Assembly: GCA_016187465.1 (NCBI GenBank)
Contig: JACPJQ010000002.1
Coordinates: forward strand, 1-64,000
Direction of reading: 5' to 3'
DNA length: 64,000 nucleotides
From: Candidatus Woesearchaeota archaeon
GTDB taxonomy: Archaea > Nanobdellota > Nanobdellia > Woesearchaeales > GW2011-AR4
Under the pieces are notes generated by a model that saw nothing but the letters and a program-made list of their open reading frames with translations, was not told the origin of the DNA and did no database searches. Below are positions 1-10,175 of the stretch, piece by piece; the stretch's first letter is position 1; every line of letters begins with the position of its first letter. Made by a program: the position numbers and the translations under genes.

Positions 1-1227
1 TTTTAATTTACCTCCCATCTTTAACTGGTATACAATGTCGAGCAATTTTTCCATAATTTTCTGATCTTTTGCCGCTTCGTTCATTATTTGCTCTTTAAAC
101 TTGAATCTGTTATCTTCCTGAACCATCTTCTCTTGCTCTTTCATGGCAGTTTCTGTATCCAATATAGAGGCGCATTTTGAGCAGTAATTGCTGTCTTGAG
201 AGTTAAGCATGCTGCATCTAGGGCAAATTTTAGGCTTGAGCTCGTCTTGTTTTTTCTTGTTCTCTTCTGCCATTCCATTAATTTCCAATATTTTATGGTC
301 TGTATCTCTTCCAGATAAGTGCACATAAGTTCCAGCAACATCACTACCTTGAACCCAACCAAAATAGACTTTAAGCTGTGCTTCTGTCAGGAAATTAGCC
401 AAGAACGTAGCTCTTGAATGCCTGAAAATATGCGGATTGTATCTTTTCTGTATCCCAGCCTTCTTGAAAATCTTCTCCAGCAAAGTCAGTATTGTGCCAT
501 ACTGCATATGCTTCCTGTTGTTTATCGCCCCTATATTAGTCCACAAAGGTGCTTTTGGATTGTTTCTCATAGGATGTGAATTAATCCATGCAAGTAGGTA
601 TGGAACAGAAGAGACAATTCTTATTCTTCTCGATCCTGTTTTTCCTATTACAGTCATTACAGCTCCTTTCTCGTCAAAGGCAATATTGTTCACTTGAAGG
701 CTTGCTATCTCCCCAACTCTGCATCCAGACTCGTAAAGCAAGGATATCAAGGCTTTGTTTCTTGGATGGTCTGAAGCTGTTATAAGCGTCTTTATGTCGT
801 CTTCTGTTAGCAATCCGTCTTGACCCGGAAGCTTGACTTTGGTCCTGTTAAGCCTCGTGCTAAACCATTTAACTTCAGGCGGAAATTCTCCATTTCCTTT
901 AAGCCATTTGTAGAACTTCTTTAATGTAACCTTGAAGTCTTTTTTTGTCCATTCAGAATACTCATTGTTCTGCTGTATTGAGATAACAATTTTCTCAATA
1001 TCCTCTTTGGTTGCCCTTTCTAGGTCCTTTTTAAGCCATAAGGCAAGCGTCTTTAAGGTTTGAACGTATTTTATCACTCTTGGCTTCCCTATTCCAGTTG
1101 CAAAGCAGTTATTTCCGAATTTTTCAATTATTGCTTTGTTCTTATCCGATATCTTGGAAGACTTCATTCTTTCCAGAGTTGACACTAGCTGCTTGTCGTA
1201 GTTGTGTATATCTATTGTTTTTTCCAT
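1..1227 (-). CDS. Tyrosine recombinase/integrase, C-terminus cut by window edge
   Basis: Site-specific DNA recombinase of the phage-integrase/Xer family. The frame is open from the ATG at 1227 to base 1 (409 codons, no stop in the window), so the C-terminus is missing. A SAM-like core-binding domain covers roughly residues 1-145. The catalytic domain shows Arg in ESGCRVGEI, a Lys in the beta-hairpin GKTGSRR, the HxxR box HIFRHSR, and the nucleophilic Tyr in GTYVHLSGRD. A zinc ribbon follows (CPRC and CSKC pairs, about residues 340-365), then a charged tail. An SD-like GGAGG lies before the ATG. It sits about 90 bp from an intron-bearing tRNA gene, the usual setting for an integrase and its attachment site. 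It could be a chromosomal XerA-like enzyme instead of an element-borne integrase. Confidence 0.9.
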   Translation of the reverse strand, partial: MEKTIDIHNYDKQLVSTLERMKSSKISDKNKAIIEKFGNNCFATGIGKPRVIKYVQTLKTLALWLKKDLERATKEDIEKIVISIQQNNEYSEWTKKDFKVTLKKFYKWLKGNGEFPPEVKWFSTRLNRTKVKLPGQDGLLTEDDIKTLITASDHPRNKALISLLYESGCRVGEIASLQVNNIAFDEKGAVMTVIGKTGSRRIRIVSSVPYLLAWINSHPMRNNPKAPLWTNIGAINNRKHMQYGTILTLLEKIFKKAGIQKRYNPHIFRHSRATFLANFLTEAQLKVYFGWVQGSDVAGTYVHLSGRDTDHKILEINGMAEENKKKQDELKPKICPRCSMLNSQDSNYCSKCASILDTETAMKEQEKMVQEDNRFKFKEQIMNEAAKDQKIMEKLLDIVYQLKMGGKLK

Positions 1228-1317
1228 TTTGGCCTCCAATAGAATAAGGGTATTCATGGTATATATAGCATATGTAGACTATATGTACACTCTGAGGGCA
1301 TATCGACTAAGAACGGA

Positions 1318-1464
1318 TGCCCCTGCGGGGATTTTCAAAAAGGTGCAATGCACTTTTTATTGAACCCCGACCTTAAGGTGACTGCTAGGCAGCCTGCAAA
1401 TAATGAGCAGGCTCGCTGTCTCACAACCGCAACCTCACGTTCTGGTCCGTTATACTACAGGGGC
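1318..1464 (-). tRNA. tRNA with two introns, probably Arg (GCG)
   Basis: The acceptor strands GCCCCTG (1464-1458) and CAGGGGC (1325-1319) pair perfectly, with discriminator A at 1318. The anticodon stem TGAGG (1437-1433) pairs with CCTTA (1378-1374). The loop reads TTGCGG plus A, giving anticodon GCG with G37. A canonical 37/38 intron of about 47 nt (1426-1380) contains a 7-bp hairpin. The T stem CGGGG/CCCCG is interrupted by a second insert of about 27 nt inside the T loop (about 1360-1334), also hairpin-forming, so that splicing restores TTCAAAT. The D stem has one A.A mismatch. Arg identity rests on the inferred splice sites and an A20-like base, so it is provisional. CCA is not encoded. 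Confidence 0.65.
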
Positions 1465-1512
1465 AGGTAGTTAAAGATAAAGAAAACAATTTATAAAGTT
1501 TTGTTATGAATG

Positions 1513-1577
1513 GCTAGCCAGAGCGTGTGCGCCAACAGCGAGGGCTAGCACAAGAATTGCGAAGCGGATTTAAAATT
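1513..1577 (+). ncRNA. Structured RNA motif, copy A of four
   Basis: GCTAGCC (1513-1519) pairs with GGCTAGC, which is followed at once by ACAAGAAT. A short hairpin TTGC-GAA-GCGG and the tail GATTTAAAAT follow. The same architecture recurs at 21151, 54203 and 59469 with different but still pairing stems. A TATA-like TTTATAAAG lies at 1490-1498. The motif lies between two minus-strand genes and is antisense to both neighbours, so it is not their leader. Function is unknown. The ACA directly after the closing stem recalls archaeal H/ACA guide RNAs, but the trailing hairpin does not fit that class. Confidence 0.5.
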
Positions 1578-1656: not shown

Positions 1657-4600
1657 TCATTCGCCCCAGTCTTTGAGGCTTATCTGCCCTTTTCTCTTGT
1701 TTTCTGGAACTTCAGTTTGCTCCTGGCCGAGCTGTTTTTTGAGGCTCAAAGCCACTTTATCTCCTAAAAGCTTGGTTAATGTCGACAAATCAGCACTCTT
1801 CAGATCTTTGATGTCCCTCATCCTGTTCCTGAATAACAGTCTTGCCCTAACCCTTCCGATGTTTTCAAGCCTGACCAATGGCAGCAGCTCCTCCTTGATG
1901 CCATACTTTAACCTCAGCCTTAACTTCACAATTTCCTTTATCAGAGATTGATAGTGCATTATCCGGCTTATCTCCTCTGTTGCGTAGAGCAGCCAATCGG
2001 CAATCTCCAGCTTCATTCTTAATTCCCCGGGCCTTATGTTGTATTCTTCCAGCAAGAATTCCTCGTCCTGCTCGCTTATCCAGTGATTCAGCATCAATGC
2101 AGTTTTCACAGAATTCAAAAAATCTTCATATTCGGGCTCATACATTGAAGGCTCGTTTTCAAGCAGTAAGGTGCTGAACTGCAGCATTGACTCCTGTATT
2201 TTGTCATATTCCCTTATCCCGACTTTGAGCATCGGCCTTATCTCAAGTGTATGGGATACCATCTGCAGGAACGAGAAAGATTCTATCCTTTTATCAGATG
2301 CGTTCTGTAGGCACTTGATTATGAAGTTGGCAGTCAAAGGGTCTATGTAAAGCTCAGCAATCCTCCTGCCCATCAAAGTCGGCTTTAGCTTTTCATCGTC
2401 TATTTCATCAGCGCTGGCGAATTCGTCTCCAGAGCGCATTATGAATTCCCACTCGTCAAGCATGCCTATAACTTTGGATATTGTTGCATGCAGTCTTCTC
2501 AAATCCTTGAATTGGTGCGCATAAAAAGTCTTGTCAAAAAAATCAAAAAGCTGTTTTTTTGTTGTAGTGAAATTCGCCGCTATTAATGAAAGGACATAAG
2601 TCCTTAGGACCGGCTCAACGGCAAGCTTCGAGTAGATATCTTCCGGAGTGCCATTCACGTATTTTTCCTCTATTTTTTCCTTCTCGGAGTTTGTCAGAGC
2701 AATTGCAATGGACTGCCCTTCATTGTCGTATCTCGGTCTTCCGGCCCTGCCCGACATCTGCATGTAATCCAGCACGGGAATCCATGTGAGCCCGTGGATA
2801 GTATATCGCTTCAGGTCCTTTATTATTGCCCTGTAAGCAGGCAAATCCACTCCGTATGAATTATGAACAATAAATCCTTCTGCAACAAACATATGACTGT
2901 TAAATGGGCTATTTGGTAATACAACATCATAAACATCTTCTTCATAATCTAAGATTTTTATTTCTTTTACCATATCCCAAAAAATGTCCCCTTCAAAATC
3001 TGAACTTCTCCAACTTTTTTTAATAAAAATAGTAAGTTTTGTATCACAAATTGGACAATTATTCAGTCTAAAAATATCATTAAAATTATTATTAAGTAAT
3101 GAACTATGAACCCATTTACCTATATTATTTAAAGACCAATACCATTCTGTATTACTTCTACTGCCCATCCTTTTTTTTGAAATTAATTGGTAATGATGAT
3201 TTAACCTAATCTCTTTCTTTCTAGGCTCATGACTTAAAATTTGATTAATCTCTCTTGAGCCTAATTCGTTGTTTTCGCCTACTAATTTTATAACTTCAGG
3301 CTTTCTTTTTCCCCATTCTTTTTGCTCGTTAGTTCTGCCTCCAAATAAATCTTTGTATAGCTTATAATTACATTTATTACATGAGATATAATGAATATTT
3401 AGGTTAAATCCTTTTAGAACATTTTTAAGAGCCTCCTGCTTCCGTTTAACACTGAAACCAATCTTTTTATGAAATCTTTCAATGCAAATTTTCTGATTTA
3501 TTAATAACTCATAAATAGGTTTTGTAGCGTATTCCTTATCATAAATTTTCATAATCCTTTTTTCTTTTTTTCTTATTGTACAAACAATTCCAAATCTTAG
3601 TAATAGTTTTTGAACATTTTTTATAAGCCTGTAAGATATACTGCAAAAACCAATATTTTTAGTATGTTTCTGCACAAAACCATCTGTGTCAAATAAACCT
3701 CGTAATAGCTCAGCAACTAAATCGCCTTCAGAATTCATTATTAATGCAGAAATATACTTATTCTCTCCTTTTTCAACACCACAGCTGCACAGAAATTCTC
3801 TAAACCACTTATTCTTGCCCAATACTAGTTGTGGTGTTCCATGAAAAGTTTTGCTAATTCTATAACTTATTCCAAGTTCTCTACAGGTACTCATAACTTT
3901 AAAAAATATTTCTTTATCTTTTCCCACAATACTGGGGCTTCCTTTATATATTATTTTTCCATTAGAAGTTTGAGCTCCAGAATAGCCATCACCAAGCATT
4001 GCACCTATCAGATACGAAATAGATTGGCTAAAATTGATATTAACAGGTATGTCATTATCTTTAACTAAATCACTTATTTTTGGTACGCTTTTCTCATTAA
4101 TATTTAAATAACCGATTGTAGCTATTTTGTCCTTTATCTTAATTTTATCAGCAGAAATTATCACCTTTTTATTGTTCCTTTTTATATACATTTTATGATT
4201 TGGAGTAACTTTTATTGAGTAGCCAGAAACTGAAGAGATTTGAATCAACTTTGAAGAATTCTTCACCTTTTGAATTTTTTGAGTTTTCATGCTTATTAAT
4301 TTATTATTGGAAATCACAAAAATAGGATTAGATGTCTCAAACGTAGAAACTTCAGTTTCATCTATACCGTGCCATAATTTTGTATCTTTAGATAAACAAA
4401 GAGTAGGCGTGCAGCATATCAGTTTTATTGTGCCATTCCTGAAATTGTCCTCTATAATATTTTTTTGGTGCTGCGTCAGGCCTGCATGATGGAATGCAAT
4501 TCCCTTTTTCAGGCAGAATGCAAGCCTCTCGCACTGCTTTGTAGGCCTTGAAAGCGCATTCAAGGCATCATCAGCCAAGGCTTTCAGAACATCATTTTCT

Positions 4601-4755
4601 GTTTTTATCTTCTTTGATATTTCCTCAGCGGTCTTCTCTGCAGATTTCTTTGTGCTCGCAAAAATTAAAGCCTGCTTCCCAATCTTCAAAGTGTCCAAAG
4701 CGATATTAAGAACAGCACTGTCAAACTGGTCGTCAAGCTTGATGGATTTTTGCAT
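1657..4755 (-). CDS. hel308: Hel308-type helicase lacking RecA1, with intein
   Basis: C-terminal part of an archaeal Hel308/Ski2-like superfamily 2 DNA helicase. It starts at the second RecA domain (GKQALIFAST), then FHHAGL, motif V (TPTL, intein, SYGVDLPA), motif VI (QMSGRAGRPRYD), the winged-helix and ratchet region, and a C-terminal helix-hairpin-helix (LENIGRVRARLL). Motifs I and II (Walker A, DExH) are absent. The frame is open up to an ATG at 4827, overlapping the neighbouring gene. A TATA box (CTTTATAAAC on the minus strand, about 4777-4787) lies 27 nt before the ATG at 4755, so a leaderless start there is preferred; it coincides with the RecA2 boundary. After intein removal the protein would be about 519 aa, against about 700 for the family. 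It is either half of a split helicase or a decaying gene. The separate RecA1 half is not in this window. Confidence 0.8.
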   Translation of the reverse strand: MQKSIKLDDQFDSAVLNIALDTLKIGKQALIFASTKKSAEKTAEEISKKIKTENDVLKALADDALNALSRPTKQCERLAFCLKKGIAFHHAGLTQHQKNIIEDNFRNGTIKLICCTPTLCLSKDTKLWHGIDETEVSTFETSNPIFVISNNKLISMKTQKIQKVKNSSKLIQISSVSGYSIKVTPNHKMYIKRNNKKVIISADKIKIKDKIATIGYLNINEKSVPKISDLVKDNDIPVNINFSQSISYLIGAMLGDGYSGAQTSNGKIIYKGSPSIVGKDKEIFFKVMSTCRELGISYRISKTFHGTPQLVLGKNKWFREFLCSCGVEKGENKYISALIMNSEGDLVAELLRGLFDTDGFVQKHTKNIGFCSISYRLIKNVQKLLLRFGIVCTIRKKEKRIMKIYDKEYATKPIYELLINQKICIERFHKKIGFSVKRKQEALKNVLKGFNLNIHYISCNKCNYKLYKDLFGGRTNEQKEWGKRKPEVIKLVGENNELGSREINQILSHEPRKKEIRLNHHYQLISKKRMGSRSNTEWYWSLNNIGKWVHSSLLNNNFNDIFRLNNCPICDTKLTIFIKKSWRSSDFEGDIFWDMVKEIKILDYEEDVYDVVLPNSPFNSHMFVAEGFIVHNSYGVDLPAYRAIIKDLKRYTIHGLTWIPVLDYMQMSGRAGRPRYDNEGQSIAIALTNSEKEKIEEKYVNGTPEDIYSKLAVEPVLRTYVLSLIAANFTTTKKQLFDFFDKTFYAHQFKDLRRLHATISKVIGMLDEWEFIMRSGDEFASADEIDDEKLKPTLMGRRIAELYIDPLTANFIIKCLQNASDKRIESFSFLQMVSHTLEIRPMLKVGIREYDKIQESMLQFSTLLLENEPSMYEPEYEDFLNSVKTALMLNHWISEQDEEFLLEEYNIRPGELRMKLEIADWLLYATEEISRIMHYQSLIKEIVKLRLRLKYGIKEELLPLVRLENIGRVRARLLFRNRMRDIKDLKSADLSTLTKLLGDKVALSLKKQLGQEQTEVPENKRKGQISLKDWGE
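2860..4398 (-). mobile_element. Intein in Hel308 motif V, with LAGLIDADG domain and zinc fingers
   Basis: A 513-residue protein-splicing element within the helicase gene. It begins with Cys (CLSKDTKLW) after TPTL and ends VHN before Ser of SYGVDLPA, so both splice junctions have the expected Cys and Asn/Ser residues. Block B is TPNHKMYI. Two LAGLIDADG-like motifs are visible, LIGAMLGDG and LLRGLFDTDG. Between the endonuclease and the C-terminal splicing block lie two cysteine pairs (CNKC and CPIC) that look like zinc fingers, an uncommon addition. The reading frame is intact, so splicing and homing may still work although the host helicase has lost a domain. Confidence 0.9.
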
Positions 4756-4810
4756 ATGCTGAAAAAGTGCAAGCTGGTTTATAAAGTTTGCTTGAGAAAT
4801 TTCAAAAATG

Positions 4811-6703
4811 TCAAATAACATTAACATTTATAATCTGCTCAATCTCATCTATGCCGTCGCTCACGGTAACTTTAACAACTTTGGCTCCTCTCGTCGTGAA
4901 TATTCGCTGGTGCATTGAAGTTGCTTTGTATTTCTGCAAAAAGCCGAAGTTCCATGTGTAGCTCAAGTCATCTTCATCCTCGTCAATTGCTTTAACAAAC
5001 ATCAGCACAGGCTTATTTACCCTTGCAACAACTGTTTTGCTGGCATTTATGATTATTGGAGGCCTGTTCTTATCGGCTATTTCAGCTTTCGCTATCTGCC
5101 TTGTCTCTGACTCGCCGTCACTGGCCACAAACACCAAATCAATTTTTGCAGTCTCTCCTTTGCCTGCTGTGCTGAAGTCAGGCGTCCACAAAAATGCATT
5201 TCCTTCAAGGGATGAGCCGCCAGGAGGATTGTCAATTAAATAAGTAATCTCGTCGCCGTCGGGGTCATTGGCATTAAGGAGTATTGCTATGCTGTCTCCT
5301 TCTCTTGCCTTTATTTCCTGTATTTGCCCGAATATAGGAAGCCTGTTGACATGCTCTATGTTTATGTCCACAAACTTTGAAGTCTCGAGCGAGCCATCGC
5401 TTGCAGTAACTTTGACATTGTAGGCTCCAGTATCGCCAAAGTTTGATTTGAAGGTGTCTGTATTTATAAACCCGGAGTAGCTCAGCTTTACCCTGTCGCC
5501 GTCCAAATCATACGCTTTCGGCGCTATTTTAAAAGCGTCTCCCTCGTTTATGTTTATTGGCTCAATATCCTCAAGCACAGGCGCCCTGTTGACATCCTTG
5601 ACGGTTATTATCACATTATGGACGATTTTTTTGTCTTTTGATGATGCTGTGAATTGCACATAAAAGTTCTTGTTAAGAATTCCAAACTGGTTCAGCACTC
5701 GATCAATAAGTCCTTCCTTCTTGACAGTATCGTAGCTTGGTTTCCATGCAAATATACTTCCGTTTAATGCTGCGCCCTCTGGCATGTGGTCAGCATTGTA
5801 AATTATTTCATCGCCATCAGGATCATTGGCATTCAAAGTGATTTTAAGTTCTTCATTCTCATTTGCAATTTTGTTGCCTATCTCGTCAAAAGCCAGCGGC
5901 CTGTCAACATCATTCACAACAATATTTACATTTTTGTCTTTGCTGAATCCTTTTCCTTCGGCATGGACAGTAATTCTGCGGCTGCCAGCATCTGAATATC
6001 CTGTTTTCCATTCATTCTTATCGCCGACAGGTTCTGATATCGAATAGCTCAGCCCATACTTCTCAAAATCCGGAAGATTGAGGGTTATAACATCGTTTTC
6101 ATTTGCAGTAATGTCTTGTATGCCTTCCAGCAGGCTTTCGACATCGACATCTGCTACATCAATATCCCATTTTCTGCCCACTTCACTTGTCCCGTCTGAC
6201 ACGGAAACAAATACTTTATGGCTTCCGGCATCGTCATAAGTAGTGTCGTAAGAAAACTCCTCCCATTTTCCTGATTTTTCATCATCTAAACGCCATTCGT
6301 AGCTCAACTCGTCCTCGTTCAAGTCTGTTGCCAGAACCTTAAAGTTAATTGACTCTGCCTCATTAATACTCAAAACATCCTGTTCCGGAGAATAAGATTC
6401 TATCCTAGGCGGCTCTTCCTTTTTTTTTACTGTTATCAGCACATCCTTGGACACGCTTGTAATGCCGTCAGAAACTGTTATTGCGGTCTTGTATTCGCCT
6501 GCATCCCCGTAATTGGTCTGCCATTCGCCATTATGGTCAAGCGGATGCTCATATTTTATTATAAGGCTGTCCGCATCAGGATCAACCACATTAGGCTCCA
6601 AGCTTAATTTTTCTGTTTCCTGAATAGTAAAATTTGATATGGAATGCGCAATATATGAGAATGCAAAAAGTATAATTACCAATAACCAAATCCCTTTATT
6701 CAT
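4811..6703 (-). CDS. Secreted cadherin/PKD-like repeat protein
   Basis: A 630-residue extracytoplasmic protein. An N-terminal hydrophobic segment (LLVIILFAFSYIA) acts as signal peptide or anchor. About seven Ig-fold repeats follow, resembling dystroglycan-type cadherin or PKD domains: each has a WxTxYxDAGxY-like strand, a VSDG-type turn, and a Dx(N/D)xPP(V/I)-like linker beginning the next unit. Asp- and Asn-rich linkers suggest calcium binding (inference). No sortase or membrane motif is seen at the C-terminus, which ends at the last beta strand. It lies 37 bp downstream of a lipoprotein built from the same repeats and is probably co-transcribed. A role in surface adhesion or host-cell contact is likely for the family, but the ligand is unknown. 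Confidence 0.8.
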   Translation of the reverse strand: MNKGIWLLVIILFAFSYIAHSISNFTIQETEKLSLEPNVVDPDADSLIIKYEHPLDHNGEWQTNYGDAGEYKTAITVSDGITSVSKDVLITVKKKEEPPRIESYSPEQDVLSINEAESINFKVLATDLNEDELSYEWRLDDEKSGKWEEFSYDTTYDDAGSHKVFVSVSDGTSEVGRKWDIDVADVDVESLLEGIQDITANENDVITLNLPDFEKYGLSYSISEPVGDKNEWKTGYSDAGSRRITVHAEGKGFSKDKNVNIVVNDVDRPLAFDEIGNKIANENEELKITLNANDPDGDEIIYNADHMPEGAALNGSIFAWKPSYDTVKKEGLIDRVLNQFGILNKNFYVQFTASSKDKKIVHNVIITVKDVNRAPVLEDIEPININEGDAFKIAPKAYDLDGDRVKLSYSGFINTDTFKSNFGDTGAYNVKVTASDGSLETSKFVDINIEHVNRLPIFGQIQEIKAREGDSIAILLNANDPDGDEITYLIDNPPGGSSLEGNAFLWTPDFSTAGKGETAKIDLVFVASDGESETRQIAKAEIADKNRPPIIINASKTVVARVNKPVLMFVKAIDEDEDDLSYTWNFGFLQKYKATSMHQRIFTTRGAKVVKVTVSDGIDEIEQIINVNVI

Positions 6704-9292: not shown

Positions 9293-10120
9293 ATGGATAA
9301 ATTAAACGATAAAGAAATCAAAGAGATATGCGAGTTGTATAAGCAACATGGAAGCCTAAGGCAGATTGCCAAGATAAAACGAAGGTCTCTTAGCACACTG
9401 CATAAATATACTTCAATGCATTCTGTGATTAAAACACAGAATATTGTAAAAAGAATTGCTAATAGCGACGAGCGCTTTATAGGCACTTATGTGGGGCTTT
9501 GGATGGGTGATGGAACTCAGTATAATGACAGAAATAGGTATACTATAAAAATTTGCTCTAACAAGAAAAATGTGAAGCTCAATAAATTTGTGCAGGATAT
9601 AATTTACAGGACTTTTGGCAAAAGGACAAGATTAATGGAAGTTAAGACCACAAATCAAGCGTATATAATATTCAAATCAAAATTTATTTATAGTTTTATT
9701 AAGGATTATTCCTACTTTGATGAAACGAGAAAAACTTACACCGTAAAGCTCAAAAAAAGAGCTGGTTCATACAATCTTCCGTTTTTAAAAGGCTGCTTGT
9801 TAGGTTTAGTTTTAAGCGATGGCTATTTAAAGGATAAATTTGCCTTTAATGTGACTTCTAGCAGATTGGCCAAGAATATGCTTAACATTTTAAAGAAGCT
9901 AGGCTATCTTCCTCACTGCTCTATAACAATGAGAGAAAAAGAGGGCTTCAAAAATCTTTATTCTATTAGGCTCGGTGTAAAACAAAGCAATAAGCTAAGG
10001 CTATTGTTGGACAGGTTCTTATTAGATATCGGAGTAGATTACTCATTTAAAGGATTGAAGTACGAATATTGTGAAAAAGAATGTACGCCCTCGAAGAGAC
10101 TCGAACTCTTGACCCCGTGA
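9293..10120 (+). CDS. Free-standing LAGLIDADG homing endonuclease 1
   Basis: A 275-aa endonuclease with two LAGLIDADG motifs, YVGLWMGDG (about residue 65) and LLGLVLSDG (about 165), each ending in the catalytic Asp. An N-terminal helix-turn-helix-like segment (SLRQIAKIKRRSLSTL) may assist DNA binding. A TTG nine bases upstream is in frame, but it lies only 1 nt from the SD, so the ATG at 9293 is chosen. The last 12 codons (KRLELLTP end) are the antisense of the tRNA-Asn 3' half: the stop at 10118-10120 lies inside the tRNA gene. It shares promoter and leader with the gene at 58516, although the proteins are only distantly similar. It probably cuts tRNA genes or their introns; the target is unproven. 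Confidence 0.88.
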   Translation: MDKLNDKEIKEICELYKQHGSLRQIAKIKRRSLSTLHKYTSMHSVIKTQNIVKRIANSDERFIGTYVGLWMGDGTQYNDRNRYTIKICSNKKNVKLNKFVQDIIYRTFGKRTRLMEVKTTNQAYIIFKSKFIYSFIKDYSYFDETRKTYTVKLKKRAGSYNLPFLKGCLLGLVLSDGYLKDKFAFNVTSSRLAKNMLNILKKLGYLPHCSITMREKEGFKNLYSIRLGVKQSNKLRLLLDRFLLDIGVDYSFKGLKYEYCEKECTPSKRLELLTP

Positions 10121-10175
10121 ATCGTCCTCATCTGAGATTAACAGTCACGTGCTCTACCTGCTGAGCTACGAGGGC
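10086..10175 (-). tRNA. tRNA-Asn (GTT) with anticodon-loop intron
   Basis: Acceptor GCCCTCG/CGAGGGC with discriminator G at 10086. D stem GCTC/GAGC, anticodon stem CGTGA/TCACG, anticodon GTT, T arm AAGAG-TTCGAGT-CTCTT. An intron of about 17 nt (10138-10122) follows position 37, the canonical archaeal site. The converging homing endonuclease gene overlaps the 3' half by 35 bp. CCA is not encoded. Confidence 0.92.

Follow-up and report, generated by a model that had tools for sequence, protein, structure and literature searches.

Hel308 is a DNA-repair helicase which, in the tiny and mostly uncultured archaea known as Woesearchaeota, is made as two proteins. The gene for one of them lies in the stretch of DNA analysed here (the window), which comprises positions 1 to 64,000 of contig JACPJQ010000002.1 in assembly GCA_016187465.1; the gene for the other lies on a different contig of the same genome. 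Helicases of superfamily 2 (SF2) are almost always single chains, because the ATP site sits between the two RecA lobes. We consider it very probable that the two genes go back to one ancient fission and that their products assemble as a two-subunit Hel308, with the ATP site across the subunit interface.

The open reading frame (ORF) at 1657..4827(-) encodes the C-terminal part of Hel308. The Hel308 profile, PRK02362, matches it only at profile positions 210-340 and 342-715, the break at 340/342 being the location of an intein, and it therefore lacks RecA1 and, with it, motifs I, II and III. The original prediction, in which the gene begins at RecA2 and lacks motifs I and II, is thus borne out, motif III being missing as well. 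The best solved relatives of this C half are the Hjm/Hel308 structures 2zj2, 2p6r, 2va8 and 9b15, and the alignment with 2zj2 extends from residue 228 to 713. The RecA2 lobe carries motif IVa (FHHAGL) and motif VI (QxxGRAGRP), and the winged helix, domain 4 and domain 5 are all present, as judged from Pfam (PF21280, and HTH_61 slightly below the Pfam cut-off), the 2zj2 alignment and a Foldseek match to 2zj8. Translation had been proposed to start at the ATG at 4755, and this proves to be the true start: the Met is conserved among relatives of the same genus, whose first residues align at this point. The preceding 24 codons represent a TATA box that the ORF crosses in frame, the similar stretch in the relatives reading xFINx. 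The precursor has 1032 amino acids, and 519 would remain once the intein had been spliced out. Most C halves (51/62) end in KRKGQxSLx[DK][WYF], which resembles the PCNA-binding (PIP) box known at the C-terminus of PfuHjm (PMC2636818). One relative (G071; L152:1993-4275(+)) has a Methyltransf_30 domain (MnmC-like) fused in frame after the PIP-like tail.

It had been suggested that the RecA1 half might be a separate gene elsewhere, and a search of the organism's own genome found one. It lies on another contig (G000:C3:339323-340015(-)), encodes only the RecA1 part of Hel308 and matches PRK02362 positions 1-228. This N half is an intact ORF (L002:1531-2199(-)) of 222 amino acids from the first ATG, or 220 from the conserved ATG; it carries PTASGKT (Walker A), DEVH and LSATIGN, aligns with residues 17-213 of 2zj2, and terminates in ...RPVKLHKGIYYDGEIEFY, followed by TAA. 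In PfuHjm, domain 1 comprises residues 1-197 and domain 2 begins at 198 (PMC2636818), so that the N half runs past the end of domain 1 and about 16-18 residues into domain 2. This tail, part of domain 2 in one-piece Hel308, is likely to serve as a docking arm. Summed over both proteins, all the motifs and the five domains of Hel308 are present. No single polypeptide containing RecA1 and RecA2 scores over the NCBIfam equivalog cut-off; there are two ORFs, on different contigs. A complete Hel308 elsewhere, which the original prediction had considered as a point that could count against it, was not found by profile search of this genome. A helicase of 643 amino acids on contig C4 was considered as a full Hel308 and rejected, since it covers only profile positions 28-511 and scores 184 bits against a cut-off of 887. 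The protein (L003:1462-3390(+); G000:C4:262745-264229) is Hel308-like, with both RecA lobes and no match to the last domains; many of these genomes have one, and it could be a partly redundant paralogue.

The split is no peculiarity of this genome but is found throughout the order. In 20 genomes of the genus, all Hel308 matches are half-length and nearly all genomes show an N and a C part; 29 genomes of the family likewise have only half-length matches. In a sample from the order (n=99), two or more matches were seen in 83 genomes, one in 14 and none, at the threshold used, in 2, and no match was full-length; wherever the paired partial matches were listed, one was an N half and the other a separate C half. 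A full-length Hel308 at E<=1e-155, a threshold chosen as passed only by one-piece Hel308, was found in 0 of 353 genomes of the order (220 genera; 180 genomes at least 90% complete), although an intein-interrupted one-piece gene could miss this threshold, as that of Methanocaldococcus jannaschii did in the control set. Looser scans listed no match in the order spanning Hel308 RecA1 and RecA2 at one-piece strength. In other orders of the same class, seven genomes have a one-piece Hel308 at 1e-182 to 1e-232, and the other 19 genomes of the class that were re-examined gave no Hel308 match better than about 1e-27. The breakpoint is also constant: among 65 N halves examined, all but one (L121) end within about three residues of GxIEF, a stop following each, and the C halves begin just before RecA2. 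In two single-contig genomes, the halves are about 37 kb (G041) and about 142 kb (G174) apart, on opposite strands. The ftsY gene adjoins the N half in 35/65 loci and a PKD-domain gene adjoins the C half in 33/73, distant families included; each half therefore has an old address of its own. In the genome studied here, the N half and ftsY (L002:1531-2199(-) and 218-1534(+)) converge, and their ends share 4 bases at the stop codons.

Both halves are under strong purifying selection. The median ratio of non-synonymous to synonymous substitution rates (dN/dS) is 0.08 for the N half (44 pairs with dS<2) and 0.07 for the C half (19 pairs); in many other pairs, synonymous sites are saturated. Motifs I, II and III are conserved at 92-100% in 55 aligned N halves, excepting the variable third position of DExH, and TPTL and QxxGRAGRP at 95-100% at the catalytic positions in the C halves. 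The TATA box claimed ahead of the ATG at 4755 (Table 1) has counterparts elsewhere: TATA-like hexamers at -36 to -24 precede 52/68 C halves (10 and 6 in two control intervals) and 39/63 N halves (12 and 9), with a peak at -31 to -27 across the C halves, a spacing that is that of leaderless archaeal transcripts. These elements suggest a promoter for each half.

The halves also appear to have evolved together. Their AlphaFold2 models are confident, with a predicted local distance difference test score (pLDDT) of 92.4 and a predicted template modelling score (pTM) of 0.88 for the N half, and of 88.4 and 0.67 for the C half, and the top Foldseek matches of each model are Hel308/Hjm structures. Pairwise distances among N halves correlate with those among C halves at 0.78 (54 genomes); in the 26 genomes for which FtsY was included the correlation is 0.89, and with FtsY removed the partial correlation is 0.69. 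This suggests linked evolution but falls short of proving that the halves bind. The strand unwound by Hel308 exits through a tunnel built from domains 1, 3 and 4 (PMC2636818), and a working enzyme therefore needs the N half seated on the C half.

Taken together, these observations can be accommodated as follows. The Hel308 gene of the order would have been broken once, early, between the RecA lobes and inherited in that state. The N gene (RecA1, about 220 amino acids) would give the Walker A lysine, the DExH box and motif III, and the C gene RecA2 with the motif VI arginines, the ratchet domain, the HhH domain and the PCNA-binding-like tail. The two proteins, each made from a gene with its own promoter, would associate non-covalently into a working Hel308, the ATP site and the DNA tunnel forming at the interface and the domain 2-derived tail of the N half docking onto the C half. 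In this species, the C half would also have to splice out the mobile intein in motif V. The fixed breakpoint favours one fission before the order radiated. Several points weigh against this picture. Some near-complete genomes show a lone half (for example, G099 the C half only; G038 and G121 the N half only), which probably reflects gaps, loss being the alternative. In a concatenated tree, the split forms lie on one side of a branch with a support of only 41, and a rapid tree built from the C halves alone places one full-length sequence (L076) among the split ones. The comparison of distances used one control protein and non-independent pairs, and the physical association of the halves, like their helicase activity, is inferred. 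A further proposal, which we regard as less likely than not, is that the SF2 helicase of these archaea is an obligate pair of subunits whose association, in place of a linker, closes the DNA tunnel of domains 1, 3 and 4; such a motor could assemble around, or leave, an unbroken strand, under the control of RecA1 supply.

Among the alternatives, the one that fares best, although we regard it as improbable, is that the halves have parted functionally, with the C half acting alone as a DNA clamp or an ATP-independent annealase under motif IVa control and the RecA1 protein serving another partner. Hel308 can anneal single-stranded DNA without ATP in a manner controlled by motif IVa in RecA2 (PMC10484726), and FHHAGL is kept in the C halves. 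However, motif VI is required only alongside a RecA1 that binds nucleotide, and it is all but invariant among the C halves; the N halves keep Walker A, DExH and SAT invariant, and the two evolve at correlated rates.

The intein was said to retain an intact frame and junction residues, and this holds on inspection: it has C1 (CLSKDTK), block B VTPNH, the end IVHN, a +1 Ser and two LAGLIDADG motifs that look intact. Its G + C content is 0.28, compared with 0.42-0.44 in the exteins. Among the C halves of the genus it occurs only in this genome, and most relatives are without an intein. Seven C halves from distant families have one opening at the same residue (TPTL^C), and the far junction is HN^S in six of the seven, those that are readable. 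The +1 position is Ala in 96% of the intein-free relatives, and the Ser in the carriers accords with the requirement for a nucleophile there. Two of the other inteins are 57-58% identical to that of the window, which is about the level seen for their exteins (54-57%). The intein thus looks like a patchily distributed mobile element that is probably competent to splice; a search of viral contigs with it gave no match. Split inteins are known in Nanoarchaeota, for example in the Nanoarchaeum DNA polymerase, and the presence of an intein in this C half raises the question of whether RNA or protein trans-splicing rejoins the halves into a one-piece Hel308. We think this very unlikely: the N halves end in an ordinary TAA, TGA or TAG after GxIEF without any piece of an intein, and the intein in the window is complete, lies at a different site and is absent from most relatives.

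The original prediction had also entertained decay of the gene while the intein persists. In its full form, this reading holds that the RecA1 portion has disappeared and that what remains survives solely because of its intein. The window alone, without RecA1, could be read in this way, and the C half of one relative in the genus (G008; L027, G008:C26, at the junction of ORFs of 140 and 455 amino acids) contains a small deletion that breaks the reading frame precisely where the intein inserts (CCTPT|...PAYR). That deletion could be the result of error-prone repair after homing cleavage, imprecise loss of an intein, or a draft error. Decay is nevertheless rejected in view of the N half found intact within this genome, the conservation of the split across an order in which nearly all relatives are intein-free, the near-invariant motifs, the low dN/dS and the promoter-like elements on both genes. 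An assembly or binning chimera joining two loci, the other failing that had been foreseen, might be suspected in a multi-contig draft genome with the gene 1.7 kb from a contig end, but it is likewise rejected, since the same separation and breakpoint are seen in independent genomes, including the single-contig G041 and G174, each half with its own conserved and different neighbours.

The features of the half-gene and its upstream neighbour are collected in Table 1.

Table 1. The hel308 C half and associated features in the window.
Feature	Positions	Strand	Description	Basis
hel308 C half	1657..4755	-	RecA2, winged helix, ratchet domain 4, HhH domain 5, C-terminal tail, in-frame intein	Profile and Pfam, solved relatives, conserved start Met
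N-extein	4399..4755	-	C half start and first part of RecA2, to ...CCTPTL (motif V)	Start common to genus relatives
Intein	2860..4398	-	513 amino acids, LAGLIDADG endonuclease; inserted in motif V (TPTL^S)	Pfam Intein_splicing and LAGLIDADG_3
C-extein	1660..2859	-	Remaining RecA2 (motif VI QMSGRAGRP), winged helix, domain 4, HhH domain, tail	
PIP-box-like (PCNA-binding) tail	1666..1686	-	QISLKDW at the C-terminus	Similar tail in 51/62 aligned C halves
TATA box	4778..4785	-	TTTATAAA, at -30 to -23 of the ATG	
PKD/Ig-domain gene	4811..6703	-	Upstream neighbour; 3' end overlaps the TATA-box region	Relative adjoins the C half in 33/73 loci

Elsewhere in the window, a tyrosine recombinase (Phage_integrase) with a zinc-ribbon-like CxxC pair at its C-terminus is encoded at 1-1257(-) and runs off the end. 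Positions 1-141 are identical to 141 bases of contig C6 (63489-63629); this is probably an assembly overlap, in which case C6 may lie next to C1 and the integrase gene may run on into it. A tRNA-Asn gene at 10086-10175(-) is about 90 bases long, longer than usual, possibly owing to an intron or a long variable arm. Rfam gave nothing in the window beyond this tRNA, and a search of phage records with the locus gave no match.

A selected fission between the lobes is a natural experiment on the need for a covalent link between them, and the order offers many natural split pairs in which the contribution of that link to lobe closure, ATP hydrolysis and DNA loading can be tested. The split may also serve as an order-level marker for Woesearchaeota, and it counts against the view that split genes in DPANN archaea are nothing more than damage from late reduction of the smallest genomes. 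A practical consequence is that automatic annotation of these genomes will label Hel308 as truncated. In the open-licence literature, we found no report of a split Hel308, or of Hel308 with Woesearchaeota or DPANN in that sense; subscription papers and preprints were outside the search. A split Dph1/2 in Woesearchaeota is mentioned in a review of DPANN (PMC6349945).

Compared with the known archaeal Hel308/Hjm proteins (2p6r, 2va8, 2zj2-8 and 9b15), the Woesearchaeal form is alike in profile, best solved relative and fold, and in a PIP-like tail such as that of PfuHjm. It differs from one-piece Hel308/Hjm in that its coding sequence is divided at the boundary of RecA1 and RecA2 into two unlinked genes, with no one-piece copy in the order. 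The intein resembles those in RecA2 of aLhr2 (PMC8301817), in that both are patchily distributed LAGLIDADG inteins in the RecA2 lobe; that of Hel308 interrupts a half-gene, and in motif V (TPTL^S). The closest precedents for the fission itself are the split proteins of Nanoarchaeum equitans and Nst1, which include reverse gyrase and the large helicase-related protein NEQ003-409 (Lhr-type SF2) (Podar et al. 2013, PMC3655853). The event is of the same kind, in that the gene of an information-processing enzyme was split, and it concerns the same broad archaeal group; as with split genes of the Nanoarchaeota type, both parts of Hel308 are intact ORFs at unlinked places in one genome. The gene is a different one, however, Hel308 not being in the table of that study (PMC3655853), and, whereas the splits of Nanoarchaeum and Nst1 are those of the most reduced species, that of Hel308 is fixed across an order, in hundreds of non-minimal genomes of about 1-2 Mb.
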